From positions 1-27,110 of the IMG/VR virus record IMGVR_UViG_3300005613_003534: 27,110 bases of DNA; one strand, written 5' to 3'. Below, one piece after another: positions 11,302-21,884 of this stretch. Source of the DNA: a virus. The notes below the pieces were generated by a model, which searched no databases, was not told where the DNA came from, and saw only the letters and a program-made list of their open reading frames with translations. The translations under genes were made by a program, and so were the position numbers. Within the stretch, counting starts at the first letter, position 1, and each line of letters starts with the position of its first letter.

Positions 11302-12009
11302 TTAAATCGGCATCTCCAACTGTGCTTGCTTCTGGCGGTCGGCTTCGATACGTTTCATCGCCATTGCCACGTAATCTGGATTGGTGTCGCAGCCGAACCA
11401 CCTGCGTCCCAGACGGTCAGCGGCTACGGCGGTCGTGCCACTGCCCATGAAGGGGTCGAAGATGAGATCACTCTCATTACTCCATTGACCCACAATATAT
11501 TCCACAGTATCTATAGGACGAGGACATGGATGCCAGCCAGACTCTTTTTCTAATACCCACTTGCACGTTTGGCCGATATGCCAATCCCTGCGCATTCCCA
11601 TTTCACCCTTGCTAGCAAATTGATATTGTGTGTTTCCTTTATGCCAAAACAGAATCGGGTCAAGTGCCCACTGTACATCAACCTTACGTATCTGAACAAA
11701 GTTCTTGCATCCAGCCATCAATCGGGCCTGGGGAAACCTACTCCATGCTGGCAGGCAATGCCGCATTGCCTGCCAAAGAAATAACAGGCGTCCGTCTTTA
11801 CATATTCGCTCTGCCTCAGCCATCCATATTTCCAGCAAGTCAAGATATTGTTTGAGTGGCAGGTTATCATCAAAGCCGTTACCATAATCATAGTTGACAT
11901 TGAACGGCGGGTCAGCTACCACCAAATCCACGCACCCGTCAGGGAGATTTTTCATTATTTCTAAACAATCCCCCACAGCGATGGTGTTTTCCTCAAACGG
12001 TCCTATCAT
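11302..12009 (-). CDS. DNA methyltransferase (DPPF type, beta class)
   Basis: This 235-residue protein is complete: 'MIGPFEENTIAVGDCLEIMK', motif IV 'LVVADPPFNVNYDYG', a middle recognition region with 'WALDPILFWHKGNTQYQF', 'HPCPRPIDTVEYIVGQWS' and AdoMet motif I 'FDPFMGSGTTAVAADRLGRR'. DPPF is an accepted variant of DPPY. Its C-terminus (RIEADRQKQAQLEMPI) is clearly related to that of the upstream gene (RIKADRQGRAQLEMSL), so the two share recent ancestry or have exchanged ends. The start overlaps the previous stop as ATGA, so translation is likely coupled. It is the last member of the methyltransferase island. Confidence 0.9.
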   Translation of the reverse strand: MIGPFEENTIAVGDCLEIMKNLPDGCVDLVVADPPFNVNYDYGNGFDDNLPLKQYLDLLEIWMAEAERICKDGRLLFLWQAMRHCLPAWSRFPQARLMAGCKNFVQIRKVDVQWALDPILFWHKGNTQYQFASKGEMGMRRDWHIGQTCKWVLEKESGWHPCPRPIDTVEYIVGQWSNESDLIFDPFMGSGTTAVAADRLGRRWFGCDTNPDYVAMAMKRIEADRQKQAQLEMPI

Positions 12010-13601
12010 AGGCTCATCTCCAACTGCGCTCTCCCCTGGCGGTCGGCCTTGATGCGCTCCATCGCCATCTCCGCATACTCAGGATTGAGGTCTATCCCCA
12101 GCCAGTTCCTACCCAACCGCTCGGCCACCAAGCCAGTGGTACCCGCTCCGATGAATGGATCAAGAACGAGGCAGGGAACTGGTTCAGGCGAGCAGTTGGT
12201 CACAGAATCGCCATCCAGGTCCCCGTCAGGGCAAATACCACAGCCGCAGGCGGGCCGCCAGCCGAGAGTTTGTATAGAACCATTGATGCGCCCGCCCCCT
12301 GACTTGCCTACTGTGCCCGATAATTCTCCACTCCCCCCTCGTGCTTCGTGTGCTGATTGTGTTTTAGGACATACCTTTGACTTTCCAGGCGTCCTCTTCA
12401 CCACCCTCACCCACGCCTTCCCGCACTTCGGGCAAGCCCCCCGCTCTGATGTCCCCGCCTTGATGCACGGCTCTATCAAGTCAGGCGGAAAGGTGTTGCC
12501 CGTGATAAATACGCTACCGTTGCGCCTTGCCACAAACGTACCGTGTTCGGTTTGTGGACACCATACGACGCCAGTATATTTGACGGTCGCAATGTTAACA
12601 CCCTTGCCACCCGTTCCCCGCAGTGAGCGGTAGGGCCGATGTGTTAGATAGCAGGCGAACACACCATCTTTCCTCTCTGTTGTAACTGCCGTATAACCAA
12701 GGCGAATTGCAACTGCCTGAATATCATCAATGAAGGATTCTGATTTCTGAATGATACTTTGCCTACCATCATCTTTGCGGGTGTGCCCATCACCACCTAT
12801 CACGCCACGCATCAAGCCGCGCAACGCTGGCTCTGACCAACTCAGCACGTCAGCAGGCAATTCCTTGTGTGGTGCTTGATTACGTAACCAGCGACCAATG
12901 GCCCCGCTTAGCGTAAACACACAACTGTTGGCGGGGCGGCCTTGCCATTGCCGCTCACGTTGGGAAGTTTTATAGTCTGCCCCTAACACATCTAATAGGT
13001 ATTGGATGCGTTCCACTTTGTCAGCATTCACGCTCGTTGATTGTTCAATGCGTACTTGCTTGCTATGTTGTATCCAGCCTTCCGTTACATACCATCCAAA
13101 AAGCTCTGCGAGCAACGGGTCAAGCTCTATCGCTTCTCTGTTGTCTTGCCATTCAGCAGCTACAGGGATGTAATGACGCGAGTTCAACAAGTGGGCTTGC
13201 ACCACTTCATACTCCGTGCTGACAGATTGCGTTGACGTTCGCCTGCGTACCACACAACGATGATTAGGCGTAAGAAGTAGAGATAGGTCACGGTTGCCAG
13301 CCTGAATCATTGTTTCATCCCGCACATCATATTGAGACACACCCAATAACGGAGTCCAGGAGAGCTTGCCACTTGCTAAGTCAAATGAGGCGATTAGCTC
13401 TCTCTTTTCCAAGTCAACGTATGACTGCCACCCAGTACGTGTTAGGCACTCTGTCTCTTCGTCAACGCAAGCGAAGTGTGCGCCCTTGAACGGCTTGGTG
13501 CTGATTGTCCAGGTATCAGGCTTTGTATTAAATTCAATAGGCTCAAAAAATTCAGCCAGATCGGCGGGCACGTCCTTAGCCTCGATTATGATTTCGGCCA
13601 T
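12006..13601 (-). CDS. C-terminal half of DNA methyltransferase B, with intein
   Basis: The 531-residue frame starts at ATG 13601, with AGGGAG eight bases before, overlapping the end of the HNH gene. Host residues 1-44 end 'ISTKPFKGAHFA' and resume at 370 as 'TFPPDLIEPCIKAGTS'. The joined motif GAHFATFPPDLI is standard in phage methyltransferases, so an intein occupies 45-369. A zinc-ribbon (CPKCGKAW ... CGCGIC) and AdoMet motif I 'VLDPFIGAGTTGLVAERLGR' follow. Motif IV (SPPY/DPPY) is absent; it lies in the upstream fragments 14191-16192. Either the two halves form one split enzyme or this is the remnant of a second methyltransferase whose first half was replaced by the HNH gene. Confidence 0.85.
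   Translation of the reverse strand: MAEIIIEAKDVPADLAEFFEPIEFNTKPDTWTISTKPFKGAHFACVDEETECLTRTGWQSYVDLEKRELIASFDLASGKLSWTPLLGVSQYDVRDETMIQAGNRDLSLLLTPNHRCVVRRRTSTQSVSTEYEVVQAHLLNSRHYIPVAAEWQDNREAIELDPLLAELFGWYVTEGWIQHSKQVRIEQSTSVNADKVERIQYLLDVLGADYKTSQRERQWQGRPANSCVFTLSGAIGRWLRNQAPHKELPADVLSWSEPALRGLMRGVIGGDGHTRKDDGRQSIIQKSESFIDDIQAVAIRLGYTAVTTERKDGVFACYLTHRPYRSLRGTGGKGVNIATVKYTGVVWCPQTEHGTFVARRNGSVFITGNTFPPDLIEPCIKAGTSERGACPKCGKAWVRVVKRTPGKSKVCPKTQSAHEARGGSGELSGTVGKSGGGRINGSIQTLGWRPACGCGICPDGDLDGDSVTNCSPEPVPCLVLDPFIGAGTTGLVAERLGRNWLGIDLNPEYAEMAMERIKADRQGRAQLEMSL
12495..13469 (-). mobile_element. LAGLIDADG intein in methyltransferase B C-half
   Basis: Residues 45-369 of the host frame (325 aa). 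It begins with Cys1 ('CVDEETECLTRTGWQSY'). A block-B-like 'LLLTPNHRCVV' follows, then two LAGLIDADG-type helices ('LLAELFGWYVTEGWI' and 'LRGLMRGVIGGDGHT'), and it ends 'RRNGSVFITGN' before Thr+1 of the extein. The terminal Gly-Asn in place of His-Asn is an accepted variant. The insertion site is the conserved GAHFA|TFPP motif. Confidence 0.85.
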
Positions 13602-14194
13602 ACGCTTACTCCCTTACTGGAATTACACCGCTTGCAGGCAGGCACAATGTTATCCTTGGTGTGGCTGCCCCCTTTAGCAATCGGCACTACGTGGTCGCGC
13701 GTGGGCGGGTTGTCATTAGTAAATTTCGTCCTACAGTAAAAGCACTGATGCCCATGCTTTTCCAGCAAGGCTGACCAATCATCGGCAGAAAAATCACAGA
13801 TGATATTGTCCATACGGGAGCGTCGCTTGGTGGCCGCTCTGCGCTGTGCTTCAATTCCCCTTGAGGTATGGGCGTATCGCAACCACCGCTCACGCCTTAG
13901 CGCTTGGGCGTGGGGGGTGCGGGCTCGCTCGCGCTCAGCTTTGCGAAATTCAGGGCTTTGGCGTTTGCGCCGCATCCTGTCCCGATTCCATAACCGATGC
14001 TTAGTTCTGCCTTGCTCCGATTGGCTGTATCTTCTTACCTGCTCTAAGGTAGCCTCATGGTGTTCATAGCGATATTCTTGAGACTGGGCCTTGATACATT
14101 CCTTACAAGCTGACCGCAACCCATCCGCCATTGTCTTATCGTGATAGAACTCTGATTCGGGTTTGCTCTCGCCACACTTGCGACAAGTTTTCAC
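13586..14194 (-). CDS. HNH homing endonuclease between methyltransferase B halves
   Basis: The 202-residue protein starts at GTG 14194, overlapping the upstream TGA (TTGTGA), with GAGG upstream. Residues 1-35 form a zinc finger (CRKC ... CKEC). A long basic helical middle follows. The C-terminal HNH domain reads 'CFYCRTKF', then 'RDHVVPIAKGG', then 'DNIVPACKRCNSSKG', with the catalytic His in DHV and the Asn/Cys pairs in place. It has no LAGLIDADG motifs and no visible intron core around it. It separates the first half of methyltransferase B from the second, at a point where both flanks show related Trp-containing motifs (RTCWKV and DTWTI). Confidence 0.85.
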   Translation of the reverse strand: MKTCRKCGESKPESEFYHDKTMADGLRSACKECIKAQSQEYRYEHHEATLEQVRRYSQSEQGRTKHRLWNRDRMRRKRQSPEFRKAERERARTPHAQALRRERWLRYAHTSRGIEAQRRAATKRRSRMDNIICDFSADDWSALLEKHGHQCFYCRTKFTNDNPPTRDHVVPIAKGGSHTKDNIVPACKRCNSSKGVSVWPKS

Positions 14195-16074
14195 AATATA
14201 CCTCGCTTAATCAATTCCATAATTACTGTTTGTTTCTGCTCTGACGATAAGTCCGATCTTAACTTCACATAGTTTGCATCCACTTTCCAACAGGTGCGCT
14301 TGTTGCGGCCTGCGGGGTTCTGTAACTTTCCAGCTTCCCGATGGTCTATCCCACGCATCTCGTCTGGGCTGCGGGTGCGTTGCTTGCTATTCCAAGCATA
14401 CTGATTGTGCTCAATGCTTGATTCCTTTAGCGGCTCCCTCACCGCATCCTGGTCGTAGAAGTAGGACTTACTCTTGCTCAGCAAGAACATGTACTCGTGT
14501 GCCTTCGTTGGCCTGTCCCTCACGCTCTCTGGCATACAGTTGTGGGTCAGCACGCCAGACGCCAGGGCAAACAGGTGTGGCCCATCTTCGACGGTGATGT
14601 CCCAAAACTTGCGTCCCTTGCTCTTGCCAATTCGCACAACCTCTGTGTCAGACTTGGCGTTGGGGTGGGTGCTACGCTGTAATCGTATCTCTCCCCTGAA
14701 GGATGGGTGCCTCTTGCCAGTAGTTGTCTCTGTTGAGAATGCGAGCTTGAGTCTTAGCTGAATGTTCAGGCGGGCACAAATCACCCGAAGGTCTTTGGCC
14801 CACTGGTAGTTTCTGGTGAAGCTGAGCCGCCAACGGTCATTAGCCCCATCGTAATGCCCATCACCTTCAAGATAGCCATCCAGAACCCCACTCAAGAATA
14901 CGTTCCCGCGCTGCCATGCCTTTGTTGTCAGGTGCTTGCCCTTGGCTGTTCTGCCAGCCACGTAATCACTCAGGATGCCTCGTAAAGTAGCTCCATGCAG
15001 GTTGATTGTGGCAGCGTTGCCTCCAGTGGCGTGCATTGCGCAAGTCCCGTCATACAAACGCGCAATCTTACGCAACTTCTCAAAGCGGGATACCTCCATA
15101 ACGTGTGAGGCGATTTGAATACAATCCTCACTCCTGCTACCCTCGGCAAGATACAACCCCACAAACCAACCAGTAAGCTGAGGGGGCAGCCCTCCACGGA
15201 GTTTGTACGGCGGCTCCGGCAAACTCGTTGACTGAATCACATCCCCTACTTTCAGCGCGTCAGTTCTGACATTACCCCGCTGGGTAGGCCACAGATGGTC
15301 GGGGGTACAACCAATCCGCTCCCCGCTCCGCAACTCAATCTCTATTGGCTGCTCAGGGCGTGGGTTTTTGTGCCATGCCAAAACCTGCGTCCACTTCTCT
15401 CCGTTCCACAGCTTAACAGTGGAGGGGTCTAGCCGCGCCGCATCCTTGACCGTCATCGGTATATCGCCCTTTTGAGAACGCACATAAAGCCACGCCCCAC
15501 CGCTGAGGCAATTTGGCTTCTGCCAGATGATGTCCGAGCGCAACCACCAGCCATCGGCTTGAAGCGCAAGGGCTACACGCCAGGGGATACCAACGAGGTC
15601 TTTGGGCTTGAGGCCGATAGGAACATTAGGGCGAGTACCCATAAAGGCCGCCGTGCCAGCATTGCTTCGCTGCTTAACACTGGCAGTATCTATGCCGCCA
15701 CCTCGATAATTCCCCCCCGCATAGCTATCCCCCAGGTTCAGCCACAGCGTTCCGTCGCCCCTCAGCACCCGCCGCACCTCTCGGAATATCGCCACTAGGT
15801 GCTCAACATAAAGCTCAGGCGTTGGTTCTAGGCCCAGACAGCCACGCCATGCACCGCAGCGCTGACAAAAGGCAGAGGGTGCCTTCTCCTGACGCACACC
15901 CGCATTGAAGGCTTCTTCTCCTGAAACATTGCCGCCGCGCAGCGTACTTTTACCAGTACCGTGTTCAGCGGCCACGCTCTTACCGCGCCCTGGGGGGGCA
16001 ACCTCATCACCCCAAACGTGCTCACATTCTGCATCACCGCCCCATACTTGCGGCTCTATGCCATAATCACGCAA
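14191..16074 (-). CDS. Middle portion of DNA methyltransferase B, with intein (frameshifted from its start)
   Basis: The 627-residue open frame begins with a TTG that is really Leu of the conserved motif WGLRDYG, so it has no true start of its own. The preceding SPPY motif lies upstream, separated by seven extra bases. Host parts: residues 1-188 ('YGIEPQVWGGDAECEHVWGD', 'LRGDGTLWLNLGDSYAGGNY', 'LQADGWWLRSDIIWQKPN') and 513-598 ('CMPESVRDRPTKAHEYMFLL', 'RNKRTCWKV'). After RTCWKV the frame runs into 29 unrelated residues and stops at the HNH start. Residues 189-512 are an intein. The natural continuation (STKPFKGAHFATFPP) is in the frame at 12006-13601. An active enzyme would need frameshift recovery, two splicing events and association of two chains. 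Confidence 0.8.
   Translation of the reverse strand: MRDYGIEPQVWGGDAECEHVWGDEVAPPGRGKSVAAEHGTGKSTLRGGNVSGEEAFNAGVRQEKAPSAFCQRCGAWRGCLGLEPTPELYVEHLVAIFREVRRVLRGDGTLWLNLGDSYAGGNYRGGGIDTASVKQRSNAGTAAFMGTRPNVPIGLKPKDLVGIPWRVALALQADGWWLRSDIIWQKPNCLSGGAWLYVRSQKGDIPMTVKDAARLDPSTVKLWNGEKWTQVLAWHKNPRPEQPIEIELRSGERIGCTPDHLWPTQRGNVRTDALKVGDVIQSTSLPEPPYKLRGGLPPQLTGWFVGLYLAEGSRSEDCIQIASHVMEVSRFEKLRKIARLYDGTCAMHATGGNAATINLHGATLRGILSDYVAGRTAKGKHLTTKAWQRGNVFLSGVLDGYLEGDGHYDGANDRWRLSFTRNYQWAKDLRVICARLNIQLRLKLAFSTETTTGKRHPSFRGEIRLQRSTHPNAKSDTEVVRIGKSKGRKFWDITVEDGPHLFALASGVLTHNCMPESVRDRPTKAHEYMFLLSKSKSYFYDQDAVREPLKESSIEHNQYAWNSKQRTRSPDEMRGIDHREAGKLQNPAGRNKRTCWKVDANYVKLRSDLSSEQKQTVIMELIKRGIL
14539..15510 (-). 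mobile_element. LAGLIDADG intein in methyltransferase B
   Basis: Residues 189-512 of the host frame (324 aa). It starts 'CLSGGAWLYVRSQKGDIPMT'. Block B is 'IGCTPDHLWPTQRGN'. The two endonuclease helices are 'LTGWFVGLYLAEGSRS' and 'FLSGVLDGYLEGDGHYDG'. Block F/G is 'FWDITVEDGPHLFALASGV' ending LTHN, with Cys+1 in the extein. All class 1 splicing residues (Cys1, penultimate His, Asn, Cys+1) are present, so splicing should work. The site QKPN|CMPES is a known intein position in phage methyltransferases. Confidence 0.92.
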
Positions 16075-16084
16075 GCCCCACTAA

Positions 16085-16192
16085 TCAATAGGGTGGACTT
16101 GTGACACAGGTTTGAAATACCTCGTTAGGAATATCGTGTAAAATCTCTAGTGCATCGCCACAAACAATCCTGTTCACATCCACCCTACTCAT
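16085..16192 (-). CDS. N-terminal fragment of DNA methyltransferase B ending at SPPY
   Basis: A 35-residue frame from ATG 16192 (GGGAGG just upstream) reads MSRVDVNRIVCGDALEILHD and ends VTSPPY followed by TGA. This is the start of a beta-class methyltransferase, with the catalytic motif as the last four residues. The rest of the enzyme continues in another frame from TGG 16080 (WGLRDYG). The seven bases TGATTAG (16081-16087) between TAT and TGG are the only thing breaking the gene; removing them gives SPPYWGLRDYG, the standard motif. Confidence 0.7.
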   Translation of the reverse strand: MSRVDVNRIVCGDALEILHDIPNEVFQTCVTSPPY

Positions 16193-16217: not shown

Positions 16218-16652
16218 TATTGTACCCAAAATAACATCCTCTACTTCCTGAACAAGCACTCCATCCCCACCCGCTCTGTATCTGAGGCACGGTCAATTAA
16301 GCACTGGGGGGCTAGTGGGCCTGACAACCCCATGTATGGCCGCAATGGCGCTGATAACCCAAACTGGAAGCGGCAAGCGCAAAAAGCACGTAAACGAGAC
16401 AATCACACCTGCCAAGTCTGTGGCATTACAGAAGCCGTCCTTGGGCGCAAGCTACACGTTCATCACAAGATTCCCCTTCGCGAGTTTGACAGGGACTTTC
16501 GGAAGGCAAACGCTCTGGCAAATCTTGTCTCTCTTTGCCCCTCTTGCCATATTGCTTTAGAATGGCAGCAGGGTCAGAGAGGCCACTCGAATCAGCCGCC
16601 CACCTCCACCAGTCAAAGCGAGCCTGTCCTATCTCCGCATACTCCTCACTGA
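16218..16652 (+). pseudogene. 5'-truncated HNH homing endonuclease, opposite strand
   Basis: The only plus-strand gene in the island. The frame is open from 16218. Its first part, 'CTQNNILYFLNKHSIPTRSV' then 'SEARSIKHWG', matches the tail of a helix-turn-helix usually placed before such endonucleases. The earlier part of that domain is cut off by TAA codons and no start has a ribosome site; the first ATG is at 16332. Then 'NPMYGRNGADNPNWK' (NUMOD3-like) and an HNH domain 'CQVCGITE...LHVHHKIPLREF...NALANLVSLCPSCH' follow. The last 30 or so residues are antisense to methyltransferase A. It is probably a decayed element; alternatively a short product from ATG 16332 is still made. Confidence 0.65.
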
Positions 16653-18918
16653 TTTCAATCGCCAAGATATTTCTCCATCCTGCAAGATAAGCCCCAATTG
16701 CTTCGCTCATTGTCCCCGCAAACGGGACAAGAATCACCGCGTCGTCCAGGTAGGCTTCGGGGGGTCTGATAAGGCGAGCTAGATATTCACAGAGGGATAG
16801 TGGTTTTATGCAAGGGTGATGATTGCGACTTATAATTGGCTTATTGGGCTTACCTGTCTGATTGTGTACTCCCCCGTCTAGCCAAGATGGTTGTCCCGAA
16901 ATACGTTGCTCCTCAAAGCCCTCCAACCCCGCCTCCCTCTCCCGCCCACTCGCCTTCGCTGTATATAGGAAGCGTGTTGCCGCTCCCTGGGCGTTGCCTG
17001 CCGCCCCCCTTACCCTTCTTGCCTGTCTGATGGAGTTTGCGATGGCATCCCGAACAGAGCCACACAATATCGAAAGGCTTGCCGTAGTCGGGATGGTGTC
17101 GATGTTCTCCCATAGCTCCGCAAATGACACAAGGTTCTGGATCAGGATACATCTCTTGGAGCTTGGCATAGAGCCCAGAATAGCTTGTAATTCCTCTTGG
17201 CTGGAATCCGAGGTCTTTATTGCGACAAGCGTAACTGCAATACGTGTTGCGCATGAGTCGCACAGGCTTTCCACAAACGGGACATTTAGGGCGAGTCTTT
17301 CGGCGAGCTTCGTCTGCACATTCCCTGGAGCAATACTTTCGATGGTTTGACGGATAATCCTCAAAGACCTTCCCGCACTGTTGGCATGTGTATTCTTGCA
17401 TTTTGAGCCTCCCTTTTCAGCTTGGCTCATTATACCATGCTTTGGCGTTAAAGGCAAGTTGCAAAAAATACAGAAGCGGGATTCACCCTGGATGTTCTTA
17501 AAATAGCGAGATGCACCGCCCTTGTCATTGTGGCCCCTTGCTGTAGTATCCAGTGTTGTGCTGGCCTTCATTGCATTGCTGTCTTTTAAGCTACCCGTGT
17601 ACTTTGGCTTTCCCGTTGGTGGCCTGATACTGCTCTTACTCTCCCCACTCATCTCATCCAACTGCCGCGCCGCCTCCTCGTCAAGGATCACATTGGCAGG
17701 CCAGCGGCCTTGCTTAGCATAGGGACGCAAATCTATAGTATCAAGCCCCCCTCGCATAGCGACACGGCCTTCCTTCGCTGCTTGTGATTGATTGCGATTC
17801 CATTCCGCTCGATGCCGTTCTGCATCCTTGCCGCTTGTCTCAATTCGACATTCGTCAATGTTCAGCGCCGCTGTCCCGTCCTCCACCGCACACTCTCGGT
17901 ACGTCTTACCCCGTGGCTTGCGTGCTAGGATGATTGGAGTAAAGTCAGGGTGTAGTTCCTGCTCGACGAGCGGCGATATAACACTCTCTTGTGCAAAAAG
18001 TGTTAGGATGCCTTGCCACTTCAAGCTTGCGGCGCTCAAATTCTCGCCCACAGTAGCCGCAACTGACGACCATCCATTTATCTGGTTGTTTTTGGCTTGG
18101 GTGGTATTTTCGGATATGGCTTGAGATAGTAACAAGTTCAAGATTCTCAGGTCGGTTATCATCTCTAATGCCATTTCGGTGGTGACATTGCTCATCTGGG
18201 CGCAAAGGCCGACCAAGCAACTCCTCCAAGATGACATCGTGTTCAAGTCTATACCGACCATCGGCAACTCTGACGGCAACGTATCCATCAGATCGCGTAA
18301 AGCGCCCACCCTTCCAGTTTGGATTATTCTCACCACTTCGCCCACGTGCAGGGTCTCCACATTTGTGGCTGCAATACGTTGCCTCTCCCCGCTTGATTCG
18401 GCTTCGCTGGGCATAGAACCGCTTCCCGCAGGTGGGACAGATTCGCCATTCGCCTCTTCGTTGTGACAACCCAACGCATCGCTTGCTACAATATTTTCCT
18501 CCACCTCGCTTGACATCGGCTTGCGAGGCTTCAAACTCTCGCCCGCACTGTTGACACTTTCGCTTGACCATTGTGCTGCCCTCCTTAGCTGATTAATATG
18601 CTCAGCTAGGATTGTAGCACAAAGATCAAATCCTGTCAAGTTTGGGCTAGGCTTCCGCGCTAATATCACATTTTCAACAGCGGGTTTCAAAGCTGTCCCA
18701 TAGCCGTCCCAGGCCTGGGCTAGGTCGGTGGCGGGTGCGGTAAGGTTCATTGTTGCTTCACCTTCTCCAAGTTTGTCAAATCCTGCGCCGCCGTGTGTCT
18801 TGGCTGGACGCCAGTTAGGAGATTGGCCCACAACCTCCCGCTCCGCCCCAGCCGCCTTGTCGATGCTCTTGCTAATTGATAAACTCTTTGGAAAGCTCAG
18901 CCAGAGCCATAAAGCCAC
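16426..18918 (-). CDS. Second part of DNA methyltransferase A, containing two nested HNH genes
   Basis: The 830-residue open frame carries methyltransferase blocks separated by insertions. Residues 9-90: 'FPKSLSISKSIDKAAGAERE' to 'ENVILARKP'. Residues 326-473: 'FTPIILARKPRGKTYRECAV' to 'GGASRYF'. Residues 645 to about 785: 'GAATRFLYTAKASGREREAG', 'NHHPCIKPLSLCEYLARLIR' and 'VPFAGTMSEAIGAYLAGWRN'. Residues 91-325 and 474-644 coincide with HNH genes in another frame, yet the host frame has no stop there. The first part of the enzyme, with DPPY, is at 18897-19277 in a different frame. The ATG 18918 is an internal codon of that first part, not a good start. The C-terminal 45 residues are antisense to the truncated HNH gene. 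Whether any full-length enzyme is made is unknown. Confidence 0.75.
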   Translation of the reverse strand: MALWLWLSFPKSLSISKSIDKAAGAEREVVGQSPNWRPAKTHGGAGFDKLGEGEATMNLTAPATDLAQAWDGYGTALKPAVENVILARKPSPNLTGFDLCATILAEHINQLRRAAQWSSESVNSAGESLKPRKPMSSEVEENIVASDALGCHNEEANGESVPPAGSGSMPSEAESSGERQRIAATNVETLHVGEVVRIIQTGRVGALRDLMDTLPSELPMVGIDLNTMSSWRSCLVGLCAQMSNVTTEMALEMITDLRILNLLLSQAISENTTQAKNNQINGWSSVAATVGENLSAASLKWQGILTLFAQESVISPLVEQELHPDFTPIILARKPRGKTYRECAVEDGTAALNIDECRIETSGKDAERHRAEWNRNQSQAAKEGRVAMRGGLDTIDLRPYAKQGRWPANVILDEEAARQLDEMSGESKSSIRPPTGKPKYTGSLKDSNAMKASTTLDTTARGHNDKGGASRYFKNIQGESRFCIFCNLPLTPKHGIMSQAEKGGSKCKNTHANSAGRSLRIIRQTIESIAPGNVQTKLAERLALNVPFVESLCDSCATRIAVTLVAIKTSDSSQEELQAILGSMPSSKRCILIQNLVSFAELWENIDTIPTTASLSILCGSVRDAIANSIRQARRVRGAAGNAQGAATRFLYTAKASGREREAGLEGFEEQRISGQPSWLDGGVHNQTGKPNKPIISRNHHPCIKPLSLCEYLARLIRPPEAYLDDAVILVPFAGTMSEAIGAYLAGWRNILAIEISEEYAEIGQARFDWWRWAADSSGLSDPAAILKQYGKRGKERQDLPERLPSESPCQTREGESCDERVACAQGRLL
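16913..17401 (-). CDS. HNH homing endonuclease nested in methyltransferase A (second insertion)
   Basis: The 162-residue frame starts at ATG 17401, seven bases after GGGAGG, and has its own promoter at 17429-17457. Two CxxC...CxxxC fingers (Cys6/9/24/28 and 40/43/55/59) precede an HNH domain, 'CVICGAMGEHRHHPDYGKPF' then 'DIVWLCSGCHRKLHQTGKK'. True homology probably ends near residue 130 (about 17012); the remaining Gly-rich tail is the host gene read in another frame. The element spans about 16987-17499, 171 codons of the host frame. Start region and fingers resemble the other nested HNH protein (KRKCQQCGREFE versus EYTCQQCGKVFE), so the two are relatives. Confidence 0.85.
   Translation of the reverse strand: MQEYTCQQCGKVFEDYPSNHRKYCSRECADEARRKTRPKCPVCGKPVRLMRNTYCSYACRNKDLGFQPRGITSYSGLYAKLQEMYPDPEPCVICGAMGEHRHHPDYGKPFDIVWLCSGCHRKLHQTGKKGKGGGRQRPGSGNTLPIYSEGEWAGEGGGVGGL
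17429..17457 (-). promoter_or_regulatory. Sigma70 promoter for nested HNH gene 2
   Basis: Minus strand: TTGCCT (17452-17457), 17-base spacer ending TGG, TATAAT (17429-17434). The -10 context ATGGTATAAT matches the phage's other leftward promoters. The expected transcript starts near 17422, about 20 bases before the HNH ATG. Confidence 0.7.
17945..18571 (-). CDS. HNH homing endonuclease nested in methyltransferase A (first insertion)
   Basis: The 208-residue protein starts at ATG 18571 after AAGGAGGG, with its own promoter at 18611-18639. Three zinc fingers are visible: Cys6/9/28/32, Cys45/48/67/71 and Cys171/174/193/197. Between them are a NUMOD3-like 'SGENNPNWKGG' (79-89) and an HNH_3-type domain 'EHDVILEELLGRPLRPDEQC' with 'HHRNGIRDDNRPENLELVTI' (His130, His131, Asn133, Asn143). 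Its TGA lies one base before the host sequence resumes, so there is no room for a group I intron core on the 3' side and only about 80 bases, mostly promoter, on the 5' side. It is a free-standing endonuclease gene inside a host gene, not an intron or intein ORF. Confidence 0.88.
   Translation of the reverse strand: MVKRKCQQCGREFEASQADVKRGGGKYCSKRCVGLSQRRGEWRICPTCGKRFYAQRSRIKRGEATYCSHKCGDPARGRSGENNPNWKGGRFTRSDGYVAVRVADGRYRLEHDVILEELLGRPLRPDEQCHHRNGIRDDNRPENLELVTISSHIRKYHPSQKQPDKWMVVSCGYCGREFERRKLEVARHPNTFCTRECYIAARRAGTTP
18611..18639 (-). promoter_or_regulatory. Sigma70 promoter for nested HNH gene 1
   Basis: Minus strand: TTGACA (18634-18639), 17-base spacer, TACAAT (18611-18616). This is near-consensus and lies entirely within the inserted segment between the host codons for ARKP and the HNH ribosome site. 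The predicted start near 18604 gives a leader of about 33 bases. Confidence 0.8.
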
Positions 18919-19277
18919 ATGACGGTGTCGTATATCTCAAACCCCGCCAGCCGAAGTGCTAATCCTAGCAAGTCGGCGGTGCGTGTGCCCCCAAACGCCA
19001 GCAACACGCCCCCAGGCTTCATAGCTCTGTATATCTCCTTCCAAATGGCAGGGCCAGGGACAAACGAATCCCACTCTTTGCCCATGAACCCACCCGTCGC
19101 CCCGCGATACTCCTCATCATTCATCCAGCACCGCAATACCTCTGCCATATCTGGATTCTTGGATAGGCCATAAGGCGGATCACACAACACCGCTGTCACG
19201 CTCTCGTCTGGCAACTCATGTAGGTGATTCCCGCAATCCCCCACCACTATTGAGTTCTTAGGATACGCCCCTATCAT
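18897..19277 (-). CDS. N-terminal part of DNA methyltransferase A (frameshifted)
   Basis: From ATG 19277 (MIGAYPKNSIVVGDC, the same MIG start as the methyltransferase at 12009) the frame encodes motif IV 'VLCDPPYGL' and 'MKPGGVLLAFGGTRTADLLG', then ends 'DTVMWLYGSG' with TGA. In intact relatives this motif continues directly as FPKSL, which is found five bases further on in another frame. The five bases TGAGC (18895-18899) therefore break the gene. GAGAG lies about nine bases before the ATG; a TTG at 19283 would add two residues. Without the second part the fragment lacks the AdoMet-binding motif I. Confidence 0.8.
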   Translation of the reverse strand: MIGAYPKNSIVVGDCGNHLHELPDESVTAVLCDPPYGLSKNPDMAEVLRCWMNDEEYRGATGGFMGKEWDSFVPGPAIWKEIYRAMKPGGVLLAFGGTRTADLLGLALRLAGFEIYDTVMWLYGSG

Positions 19278-19295
19278 ATCCAATCTCTCTTCCCA

Positions 19296-21884
19296 TTATC
19301 TCTGAAATATCGGCGCCAGCTCCCTACTTCTCTGAAACAGTGCATGATGGGCGCCAAGGGACAGCGGCTCTTTCTTAGCCACAACTGACCCCGTAGCGGG
19401 AACACCTCCGATGCGGAATATAGCCCTCAAATTCAATTCCACTGTGTCAAGACAGTGATCACTTGCTTTCGGGGAGCCGAACCCCCGCCACTCCTCAACG
19501 AACTTATTCATGGACTGATGTGGCGTCATGCGACCATCCATGCCGAGCACTCCCTTGAGAAAGACTTTCTTGTTCCTAAAGTGAACTGCCATCCCTGCGA
19601 ATCTCAGTGCCTTCGGTATCCCCTCCGTTGTCTTCCCCTGTATCGGCAGATTCGTCTCCTCTGTCATTTCCTGAACAAAGAGGTCTTGCGCTGCGTCGGA
19701 CTCGATAGTGATCACTGCAGGATTCCACTTCGCAGCTTGTATCTTGATGATCTCTTTCATCTGGGCATTAGAGGCGTCAGACACGATGAAGTCGAGAACG
19801 TACACACATTTATTCAGCGGGTCATATCCTGACACGTTGAGTGCAAAAGGGTCAGATGCGCCAGGCCGTCGTGTGCGATGACGGGGACGGTGCGATAGGT
19901 CACATGCGATGAATATACGTAGGTGAGGAGGCTCCTCTATGTAATAATGGAGGTCAGACTCCCGAAGGAAGCCACTCTCTAGGTCGATGGGCTTCTGCTC
20001 GTACTGAGCACTGAACTGGATATAGCTGGCACGCTGTTCCTTCTCAAGCATCTCCGTTGGGAACTGCTTTGACCAGAGCGGTTTCTCTGGCGTTGCGGAG
20101 AATACCTTACTCTCGTACAAGTCAAGAAGCTTCCCATACAAATCCTGTGTGTAGAAACGTGCCCCTATGATAAAGATGCGGCTGCCAGGCAGGAACCTAT
20201 CAAGCCTCTTAGATAGAGAACCAAAGTACCAATTTGCCAAGTGACTGCGCTGTGTCACGGTCATGGAATTTTGCTGCGTTACGAGATCGTCGCCTATTAT
20301 TTTACTAGCTCGATAGCCCACGGTGGCGCTGCCGACACCGAGGGCAAGGAGAGAGGGGTGAGGCGACTTCCACTCGCTTCTCCTTATGAACTTCTGCGTG
20401 TTCGTCCACCTCGTGGCTTCGCTGCGAGGGGGGATGAGATCGCCGTATATCTCCTTGTAAGCAGGCGTTGACATAATCTCCTCAATGAACTGGAGCAACT
20501 GAGCAGAGTAGGTCTCCGTGTGAGTTGCGACGAAGATGCGTTCGTTGGGATTGCGGCCTAGCATATCCGCTGCGAGGAAGCCTATGAGGGTGCTGTTGTG
20601 AACGACGAAGTCATTGGCAATAAATGTCTTGTCTTCCTCAACTGATAAGCAGCGGCATGGCCGCTTGCCACCCTTGCTGATGTTCACGATGCTGTCTGGG
20701 AGATACTCCCCATCGAAGGTTCGTCTATACCAGCCTGCTTCTTTCCACTCCCTAGCACGCTGGACTTTCTTAGTATGCCTAAACGGGATAGTATTGAGGA
20801 ACTTTGAAACCTCATCAATGCAAGTAATGTCAAGGGCATAATAAGTTTTAACTCCACGATCAACTCCCTTGTAGCGATACCTCATACTGCGCTTCCGTAC
20901 CCTTCCAGAGATGCCAAGCCGTGTGAGCAAGTGAAGAACTCCAAACAGCAATGTTCGGCTGACACTTGAGAAGGAGACACAGACATCCGTGCGAGCATTT
21001 CCCCGTTTGTTTATCGTTCCATCACAGTCAAAGTATGCAGCTATGAAATTGCGTACCGCTTCCACGTCGGCGCGAAGGACGGCATCTGGCACTTGCTTTG
21101 CAGAAGAAGCGCAGCCCCACAAGGCAATATCGGGACGACGCATCAGATCGCGAGCACCACTGAGGGCTCGGATATTAAAAGTTTTTGTTGGTCTATCACC
21201 ATGCCCAGCCTTAGACTGCGAGTAGTTATAGCCCAGAGAGACAAGGCAGTGTTTTACATCTTCAAGAATGTTATTGTCTGAATTCGTAACGTGGCAATTT
21301 CCGCTGGTAAGCGAGCCATCTCCCACAAAATATCCCAAGAGCCTAGCTTCCTCTAGCCTCATCGACGTTGATTTGAAGAGCTGTTTCTGGCTTACGGCAA
21401 GAGACATCCCAGCCTTTAGGTCGCTTGCATTCATCCAGCCCTCAGTTGTGAGAAATGGATGATCGTATGCAGAGAAAATCTCACGACCACTAAAGGTTTC
21501 AATATGTAAAACGGGAAGGTCACCTTGTTCATAGACAGCTTGTACCCGCCTGGGCTGCCCGGTATGAGATATCACAGTGTCGCCAACTTTAATGCTCCCT
21601 AACCGCTTATGCGTTCCATCTCCCATTAAAACAAGAGATTCTTCCCATAGTGGTTTTGCGTGTCCTGGGGGGGCCAAGAGGAGAAATTCCTCCAGATCGT
21701 CATCCTCCAAGTATGGTATGATCTCATCTTGATACGCAGGCATCTTCCAGCCGAAGACCTTCTCGTATCGCTCTTTGAAGGTGAGATCACGCCCCACTGT
21801 GGCGTGTTCCTGTGGGAACATGGATGCTCTGAGCTTACGGGAAAGAGCGAGGGCTTCTTCGTTAGAGTCGAGAAAGGTACTCAT
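19296..21884 (-). CDS. terL: Large terminase subunit with intein in the P-loop
   Basis: The 862-residue frame starts at ATG 21884 (AAGG upstream). Host residues 1-77 end 'FLLLAPPGHAK' and resume at 431 with 'STLIGFLAADMLGRNPNERI'; together these give the Walker A loop APPGHAKST. Walker B is 'SKIIGDDLVTQQNS'. The C-terminal nuclease has 'IFIACDLSH', 'AVITIESDAAQDLFVQEM' and 'SDHCLDTVELNLRAI', with acidic residues at the expected places. Spliced length would be about 509 residues, normal for phage TerL. The protein packages DNA into the prohead through the portal. Because the intein splits the ATP-binding loop, packaging depends on splicing. Confidence 0.92.
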   Translation of the reverse strand: MSTFLDSNEEALALSRKLRASMFPQEHATVGRDLTFKERYEKVFGWKMPAYQDEIIPYLEDDDLEEFLLLAPPGHAKPLWEESLVLMGDGTHKRLGSIKVGDTVISHTGQPRRVQAVYEQGDLPVLHIETFSGREIFSAYDHPFLTTEGWMNASDLKAGMSLAVSQKQLFKSTSMRLEEARLLGYFVGDGSLTSGNCHVTNSDNNILEDVKHCLVSLGYNYSQSKAGHGDRPTKTFNIRALSGARDLMRRPDIALWGCASSAKQVPDAVLRADVEAVRNFIAAYFDCDGTINKRGNARTDVCVSFSSVSRTLLFGVLHLLTRLGISGRVRKRSMRYRYKGVDRGVKTYYALDITCIDEVSKFLNTIPFRHTKKVQRAREWKEAGWYRRTFDGEYLPDSIVNISKGGKRPCRCLSVEEDKTFIANDFVVHNSTLIGFLAADMLGRNPNERIFVATHTETYSAQLLQFIEEIMSTPAYKEIYGDLIPPRSEATRWTNTQKFIRRSEWKSPHPSLLALGVGSATVGYRASKIIGDDLVTQQNSMTVTQRSHLANWYFGSLSKRLDRFLPGSRIFIIGARFYTQDLYGKLLDLYESKVFSATPEKPLWSKQFPTEMLEKEQRASYIQFSAQYEQKPIDLESGFLRESDLHYYIEEPPHLRIFIACDLSHRPRHRTRRPGASDPFALNVSGYDPLNKCVYVLDFIVSDASNAQMKEIIKIQAAKWNPAVITIESDAAQDLFVQEMTEETNLPIQGKTTEGIPKALRFAGMAVHFRNKKVFLKGVLGMDGRMTPHQSMNKFVEEWRGFGSPKASDHCLDTVELNLRAIFRIGGVPATGSVVAKKEPLSLGAHHALFQRSRELAPIFQR
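20595..21653 (-). mobile_element. LAGLIDADG intein in terminase Walker A, with Pro at position 1
   Basis: Residues 78-430 (353 aa). Block A starts 'PLWEESLVLMGDG', with Pro where class 1 inteins have Cys or Ser. Block B is 'FSAYDHPFLTTEGW'. The endonuclease helices are 'LLGYFVGDGSLT' and 'FIAAYFDCDGTIN'. Block F is 'RPCRCLSVEEDKTFIAN' and block G ends 'DFVVHN' before Ser+1. The Cys in RCLSV sits where class 1 inteins have Asp in YDLxV; a block F Cys nucleophile with a non-nucleophilic first residue is the hallmark of class 3 inteins. The expected Trp and Thr of the class 3 WCT signature appear to be Phe and Val here. Confidence 0.88.

Follow-up and report, generated by a model that had tools for sequence, protein, structure and literature searches.

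Homing endonucleases that sit in coding genes are expected to come with an intron or an intein as protection for the host gene. In phage Aeh1, mobE, an intervening free-standing homing endonuclease gene, splits its host gene nrdA into two ORFs. The locus described here resembles mobE/nrdA in placing a selfish nuclease gene within a phage enzyme gene, but here the host frame runs through. HNH homing endonucleases of the I-HmuI type share the nuclease type with our locus, but I-HmuI sits in a group I intron, and there is none here. The closest described arrangement is the "ShiLan domain", an out-of-frame HNH gene in a mycobacteriophage methylase, first published in 2025 (PMC11855218, Genes). The published case is confined to mycobacteriophages, and the open frame was not tested against chance. 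The same paper describes a hidden HNH-like insertion in Pacc40 gp60, which likewise is an out-of-frame endonuclease-like ORF in a phage methylase with the host frame open. It differs in having a helicase-fused methylase and another position, a distinction drawn from its description rather than from a sequence comparison.

We analysed a 27,110-nt stretch of viral DNA (hereafter, the window) in which two HNH genes, HNH1 and HNH2, lie within one methyltransferase gene, MTase A. HNH1 shares with the ShiLan domain the methylase family, the TALKP / ARKP site, the phase, the open host frame, and the lack of an intron or intein. In each, an HNH domain between zinc fingers is encoded in the host's third frame, and the two proteins are homologous (approximately 52% identity over residues 44-208). 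HNH1 differs in its extra N-terminal zinc finger, promoter-like site, and clear Shine-Dalgarno sequence. The arrangement is already known, and HNH1 is a member of the ShiLan kind by its site, a homologous HNH in the third frame, a stop-free host frame, and, among its relatives, a disjunct mobile distribution. HNH2, in contrast, belongs to another HNH family and another insertion site (SRFF); it works alike but is not a ShiLan domain. The window further differs from the published case in holding both HNH1 and HNH2 within one gene. A preliminary description of this DNA had proposed a different invasion strategy, with the host protein translated straight through and the endonuclease made from its own signals. 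The relatives fit this sequence-based prediction (sites, zero stops, signals, no intron or intein), but the strategy is not new, having appeared in PMC11855218. Judged against the open-access full text only, what is new here is the HNH2 family and its site, two cassettes in one gene, and the spread beyond mycobacteriophages, along with a stop-avoidance test with free-standing controls, a variant-code case, and the promoter and Shine-Dalgarno signals.

Two HNH genes within one methyltransferase gene

The host gene and its inserts comprise the following features.

16426..18918, minus strand: open frame of MTase A spanning both inserts, 830 codons (ORF list and comparison with relatives)
18897..19283, minus strand: N-terminal part of MTase A, with the DPPY motif and PF01555, ending at the TGA of the 5-nt insertion
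18895..18899, minus strand: 5-nt insertion TGAGC between GSG and FPKS, which breaks MTase A (sequence compared with relatives)
17944..18648, minus strand: insert 1 (705 nt or 235 codons), with a copy of a host strand motif on each flank (VENVILARKP / FTPIILARKP)
17945..18571, minus strand: HNH1 endonuclease gene, 208 aa, zinc fingers, HNH_3, and zinc finger, ATG start
16987..17499, minus strand: insert 2 (513 nt or 171 codons), located at the SR(Y/F)F site of MTase A
16913..17401, minus strand: HNH2 endonuclease gene, 162-aa ORF, zinc ribbons and HNH

The coordinates and lengths of the two HNH ORFs inside the methylase agree with the preliminary description, as does its account of inserts of whole codons that bring no stop into the host frame while the HNH genes are read out of frame. 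The codon grids of HNH1 and HNH2 are each two bases off the host grid, with an identical offset for both. The C-terminus of HNH2 extends into host sequence, and its true end is uncertain. The HNH catalytic motif and zinc-binding residues are present (PF13392, 2.5e-8; invariant H/N and C residues), and both proteins match PHROG HNH families. From the catalytic motif and zinc-binding residues, HNH1 and HNH2 are predicted to be HNH homing endonucleases with putative cleavage activity. In a PDB comparison of the HNH1 model, the top match was the homing endonuclease I-HmuI, albeit weak (E = 0.11). The two genes had been called related, and they do share a broad match to phrog_1271, but the relationship is remote and they form separate nested families at separate sites.

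The 830-codon frame contains the motifs FPKS, TALKP, ARKP, NID, GRWPAN, SRYF, and HPCIKP, as well as the C-terminal AdoMet half, and constitutes the downstream part of an N6/N4 DNA methyltransferase. TGAGC creates a stop after MWLYGSG and leaves the N-terminal DPPY part and the remainder of the gene in different frames, upstream of both HNH cassettes. The earlier statement that the host frame is left open holds for 16426-18918, but this is only the downstream part of a frame-shifted gene, and the 5-nt break had been overlooked. As the sequence stands, full-length read-through of MTase A in this contig is predicted to be impossible unless there is frameshifting or re-initiation. The exact scar junction had no match among other viral contigs, a DNA similarity search of the locus against phages gave no match, and a single-sequence scan with the full host ORF gave no confirmed match.

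There is an appreciable possibility, though short of an even chance, that the cassettes lie in a dying methylase pseudogene whose open frame is left over from a recently functional state. This would apply to this copy only and is compatible with a ShiLan-kind explanation for the families. Such decay would account for the stop-bearing insertion at GSG|FPKS and for another, of 7 nt, after SPPY in the adjoining MTase B. However, more than 800 downstream codons are open with conserved motifs, and the insertion in MTase A may have arisen recently, reflect an assembly error, or mark a split enzyme made via re-initiation.

The insertion in MTase B is TGATTAG (16081-16087, between SPPY and W); like the one in MTase A, it is short, contains a stop, and falls inside a conserved motif. 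Because some relatives have inteins at or adjoining the GSGFPKS site, these insertions could be repair scars of endonuclease cuts; they may also reflect assembly error. A third HNH gene (16332-16652, plus strand; PF01844, 3.5e-10) overlaps the 3' end of MTase A in antisense orientation, and the MTase A ORF runs on through it. MTase B and the large terminase subunit both match inteins, and the terminase also matches LAGLIDADG, as does a third methyltransferase (window 14191-16074, 19296-21884, and 12006-13601). The window is unusually rich in homing elements.

Nested relatives and stop avoidance in the host frame

Queried with the host frame, tblastn pointed to Cylindrospermopsis phage Cr-LKS3, a cyanophage, and to Mycobacterium phages, in which genes annotated "DNA methylase" have an insert of about 200 codons at the same site as insert 1. 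Frame +2 of these inserts encodes a homologous zinc finger-HNH-zinc finger protein in the same phase, and the host frame stays open. Scanning viral contigs with a profile yielded 80 HNH1 relatives. Loci with at least 40% identity are essentially all nested in a methylase with zero host-frame stops, and this persists at 32% G+C, a composition at which the other phase has 23. The preliminary description had regarded relatives with host-frame stops as grounds for abandoning its reading; in the HNH1 scan, none was found above 40% identity apart from the closest free-standing relative (L035), which has 11 stops and is not inside an open methylase frame. At the ARKP site, the host strand motif (E...A.KP) stands on either side of the insert, a repeat already noted in PMC11855218. 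In three loci (L036, L037, and L040), an HNH1-family cassette occupies another site, between the FPKS motif and LKPA, and the host frame is again open. For HNH2, a two-sequence profile search gave 32 relatives. In 26 loci, including the window, the HNH2-type gene lies within this methylase family at the SRFF site, with the phase unchanged. Among mycobacteriophages, HNH2 had no match.

We permuted synonymous codons within each HNH gene, keeping the protein and codon usage. For the window alone, the host frame was open with P = 0.37 for HNH1 and P = 0.43 for HNH2. The preliminary description had noted that chance, though possible, would need both the length and a stop-free frame twice; by these values, an open frame is not improbable. 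Window-only statistics are weak, and the window alone is unremarkable. The codon shuffling that it had itself proposed shows an open frame to be common here but is decisive across relatives. In the HNH1 family, 0 host-frame stops were observed in 53 nested loci, while 86.7 were expected; the product of P(open) over 28 representatives below 70% identity is about 10^-34, a significance overstated by relatedness. Among 18 representatives of the HNH2 family, chosen below 75% identity, 0 stops were present with 21.5 expected, and the product probability of about 10^-13 is likewise overstated, as the sequences are not independent. Free-standing HNH relatives, which served as controls and among which L003 was retained, had 254 stops versus 227 expected, that is, no avoidance. 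Excluded from these statistics were L107/L121, L108, L112, and L119, which have an open +1 frame but not the same methylase.

A host frame that merely happens to be open in both inserts would be allowed by the shuffles of the window, even after a factor of about 1/3 for each length. With zero stops in 53 and 26 nested loci and no avoidance in free-standing relatives, however, chance is barely credible, and we reject it for the HNH1 and HNH2 families, but not for the window alone. Comparison of about 80 related sequences, whose inserts keep the methylase frame stop-free, is decisive that the open frame across both families is not chance. Stops in the phase between HNH gene and host arise only where an NTA or NTG codon precedes A or G, and such codon pairs are few in these zinc-finger proteins, whereas approximately 9 stops per gene are expected in the other phase. 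This difference explains why a single phase is seen throughout.

In pairs at 45-55% identity, third bases of fourfold codons agree 1.35 times as often as expected in nested genes and 0.95 times in free-standing ones, which suggests some constraint beyond stop avoidance, although shared ancestry can contribute. Such a constraint hints that the frame may be kept open for a reason other than an active enlarged methylase, for example, ribosome-transcription coupling that spares downstream genes from silencing, or a functional inserted peptide. The MTase A of the window, frame-broken yet open downstream, would also fit. We consider this unlikely. Carriers keep conserved methylase motifs both before and after the inserts, which suggests that the enzyme itself is retained, and the extra constraint could equally be shared ancestry.

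Expression signals, mobility, and a proposed mechanism

Upstream of each HNH gene in the window are candidate signals for its expression.

18611..18639, minus strand: promoter-like TTGACA-17-TACAAT 5' of HNH1 (sequence and family-wide test)
18580..18586, minus strand: Shine-Dalgarno AAGGAGG of HNH1
17429..17457, minus strand: promoter-like TTGCCT-17-TATAAT 5' of HNH2 (sequence)
17408..17415, minus strand: Shine-Dalgarno AAGGGAGG of HNH2

A -10 box with at least 5/6 matches occurs in 58% of HNH1 cassettes versus 10.5% of control windows (P 5e-9), and in many cases lies exactly 33 nt upstream of the start. Exact Shine-Dalgarno 5-mers are present in 46% versus a background of 3.3% (P 1e-11). Roughly half of the relatives lack the two signals or have only weak versions of them, and coding in the host frame could account for some of the upstream conservation. 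The cassettes appear to carry their own expression signals, many with both a -10 box and a Shine-Dalgarno sequence. Mycobacteriophage cassettes have GGAGG immediately 5' of a GTG. For the ShiLan domain, no ribosome-binding site was reported; a GTG 18 bp into the insert was proposed, and leaderless initiation was suggested (PMC11855218). That long start appears excluded in Mycobacterium phage MISSy (L022) because an in-frame TGA precedes the HNH domain, and the GGAGG-preceded GTG at 1839 fits. Some HNH2 relatives have a TACAAT-like box only about 6 nt before the ATG, which would be compatible with a leaderless mRNA.

Comparison of relatives indicates that the HNH cassettes are mobile and disjunct in distribution, since the inserts are far more alike than the methylase flanks. 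Across the compared methylases, inserts are up to 91-100% identical versus 57-88% for flanks; the values are up to 91-95% versus about 60-82% for Cr-LKS3 and several metagenomic phages, and 82-100% versus 60-88% for mycobacteriophages. For the latter, the same conclusion was reached from phylogeny (PMC9957025). In unrelated phages, these cassettes occupy the same methylase sites. Upstream, MISSy and Teaspoon are near-identical; the insert of MISSy and a diverged tract 3' of it then interrupt the match, which is restored further on, as would be expected of repair-driven import.

Excision of the insert by an unrecognised self-splicing intron or intein might be suspected from the host motif repeated on both flanks of insert 1, and from inteins in other window genes and in some carrier methylases. 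However, no group I or II intron core matched Rfam at the gathering score in the window and 12 loci. No Pfam intein matched in the 830-aa frame, and the same search detected intein domains in MTase B and the terminase. The preliminary description, which had found no fitting intron core and no intein motifs, is borne out. Further, an intron would need no open host frame, and both possibilities were tested for the ShiLan arrangement, with neither found (PMC11855218). We regard splicing as very unlikely. Ribosomal bypass over the insert was also rejected, as a bypassed segment need not be stop-free. In an AlphaFold model of the methylase of a relative (L044), the core is partly confident (blocks of 70-90) and most of the insert is below 50; the mean pLDDT of the full model is only 49.9, and we used it solely for this contrast between core and insert. 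It is consistent with the insert of L044 being a tolerated flexible excursion.

Our preferred reading, which we hold to be quite likely, places HNH1 and HNH2 among out-of-frame homing-endonuclease cassettes of the same kind as the ShiLan domain. Such a cassette would comprise an HNH gene preceded by a promoter-like site and a Shine-Dalgarno sequence, inserted into one of the conserved motifs of a phage N6/N4 DNA methyltransferase. Its length would be a whole number of codons, and it would occupy the sole phase whose host frame can stay stop-free. From the internal signals seen in the sequence, the endonuclease would be made and would cut the insert-free methylase gene at the conserved motif. 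Repair would then copy the cassette in, in keeping with the mobility seen among relatives. The methylase would be translated straight through to an enlarged protein with a flexible insert, as the open frame and stop avoidance suggest, and selection on read-through would remove stops from the host frame as the endonuclease sequence drifts. Through dual coding that spans 130-200 codons, HNH cassettes seem to dispense with an intron or intein, and selfish HNH genes appear to spread without breaking the host gene.

Variant code, double occupancy, and wider occurrence

One nested HNH2-type gene, in IMGVR_UViG_3300001487_000056 (L137:7-1893), contains TGA codons in both frames, 7 in that of the HNH gene and 2 in that of the host. 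The methylase motifs of L137 show TGA read as glycine (FMGKGWDNSGIAF, DPFNGSGSTGK). Both ORFs are open only under code 25, and TAA and TAG are absent from both frames of the insert. We rejected L137 as an exception to the open frame, as TGA = Gly opens both ORFs. Another candidate, L125/L147 (LR745208), has only the C-terminal half of the methylase and a stop in the HNH gene; we set it aside as a relic that lends no support. Double occupancy is also seen outside the window: inserts of both the HNH1 and HNH2 types occur together in L139 and L146, and probably in L080. In L130:1250-3733, one methylase gene has an intein at YG|SGFPKS plus a nested HNH2.

We lean, with less assurance than for the cassettes themselves, towards a general class of mobile elements, nuclease cassettes permissive for the host frame. 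At least two HNH families at three methylase sites would have settled independently in the only phase that leaves the host open. Two can share a gene, the rule holds under TGA = Gly, and the cassettes would persist unspliced via straight-through translation. The nested-HNH arrangement emerges here as widespread in phage methylases, with measurable stop avoidance and a natural experiment in a variant code. It also carries a warning for annotation: nested genes are recorded as a single "DNA methylase", and the endonuclease is missed.

Five further candidates for nesting (L107/L121, L108, L112, L119, and L003) were rejected, as their open +1 frame is other than an MTase A-type methylase. In L107:2-769 and L121:2-769, the HNH gene is out of frame with an apparent intein C-terminus (CLTVPACGFFRLANGILVSN|C), that is, a nuclease nested in an intein frame.
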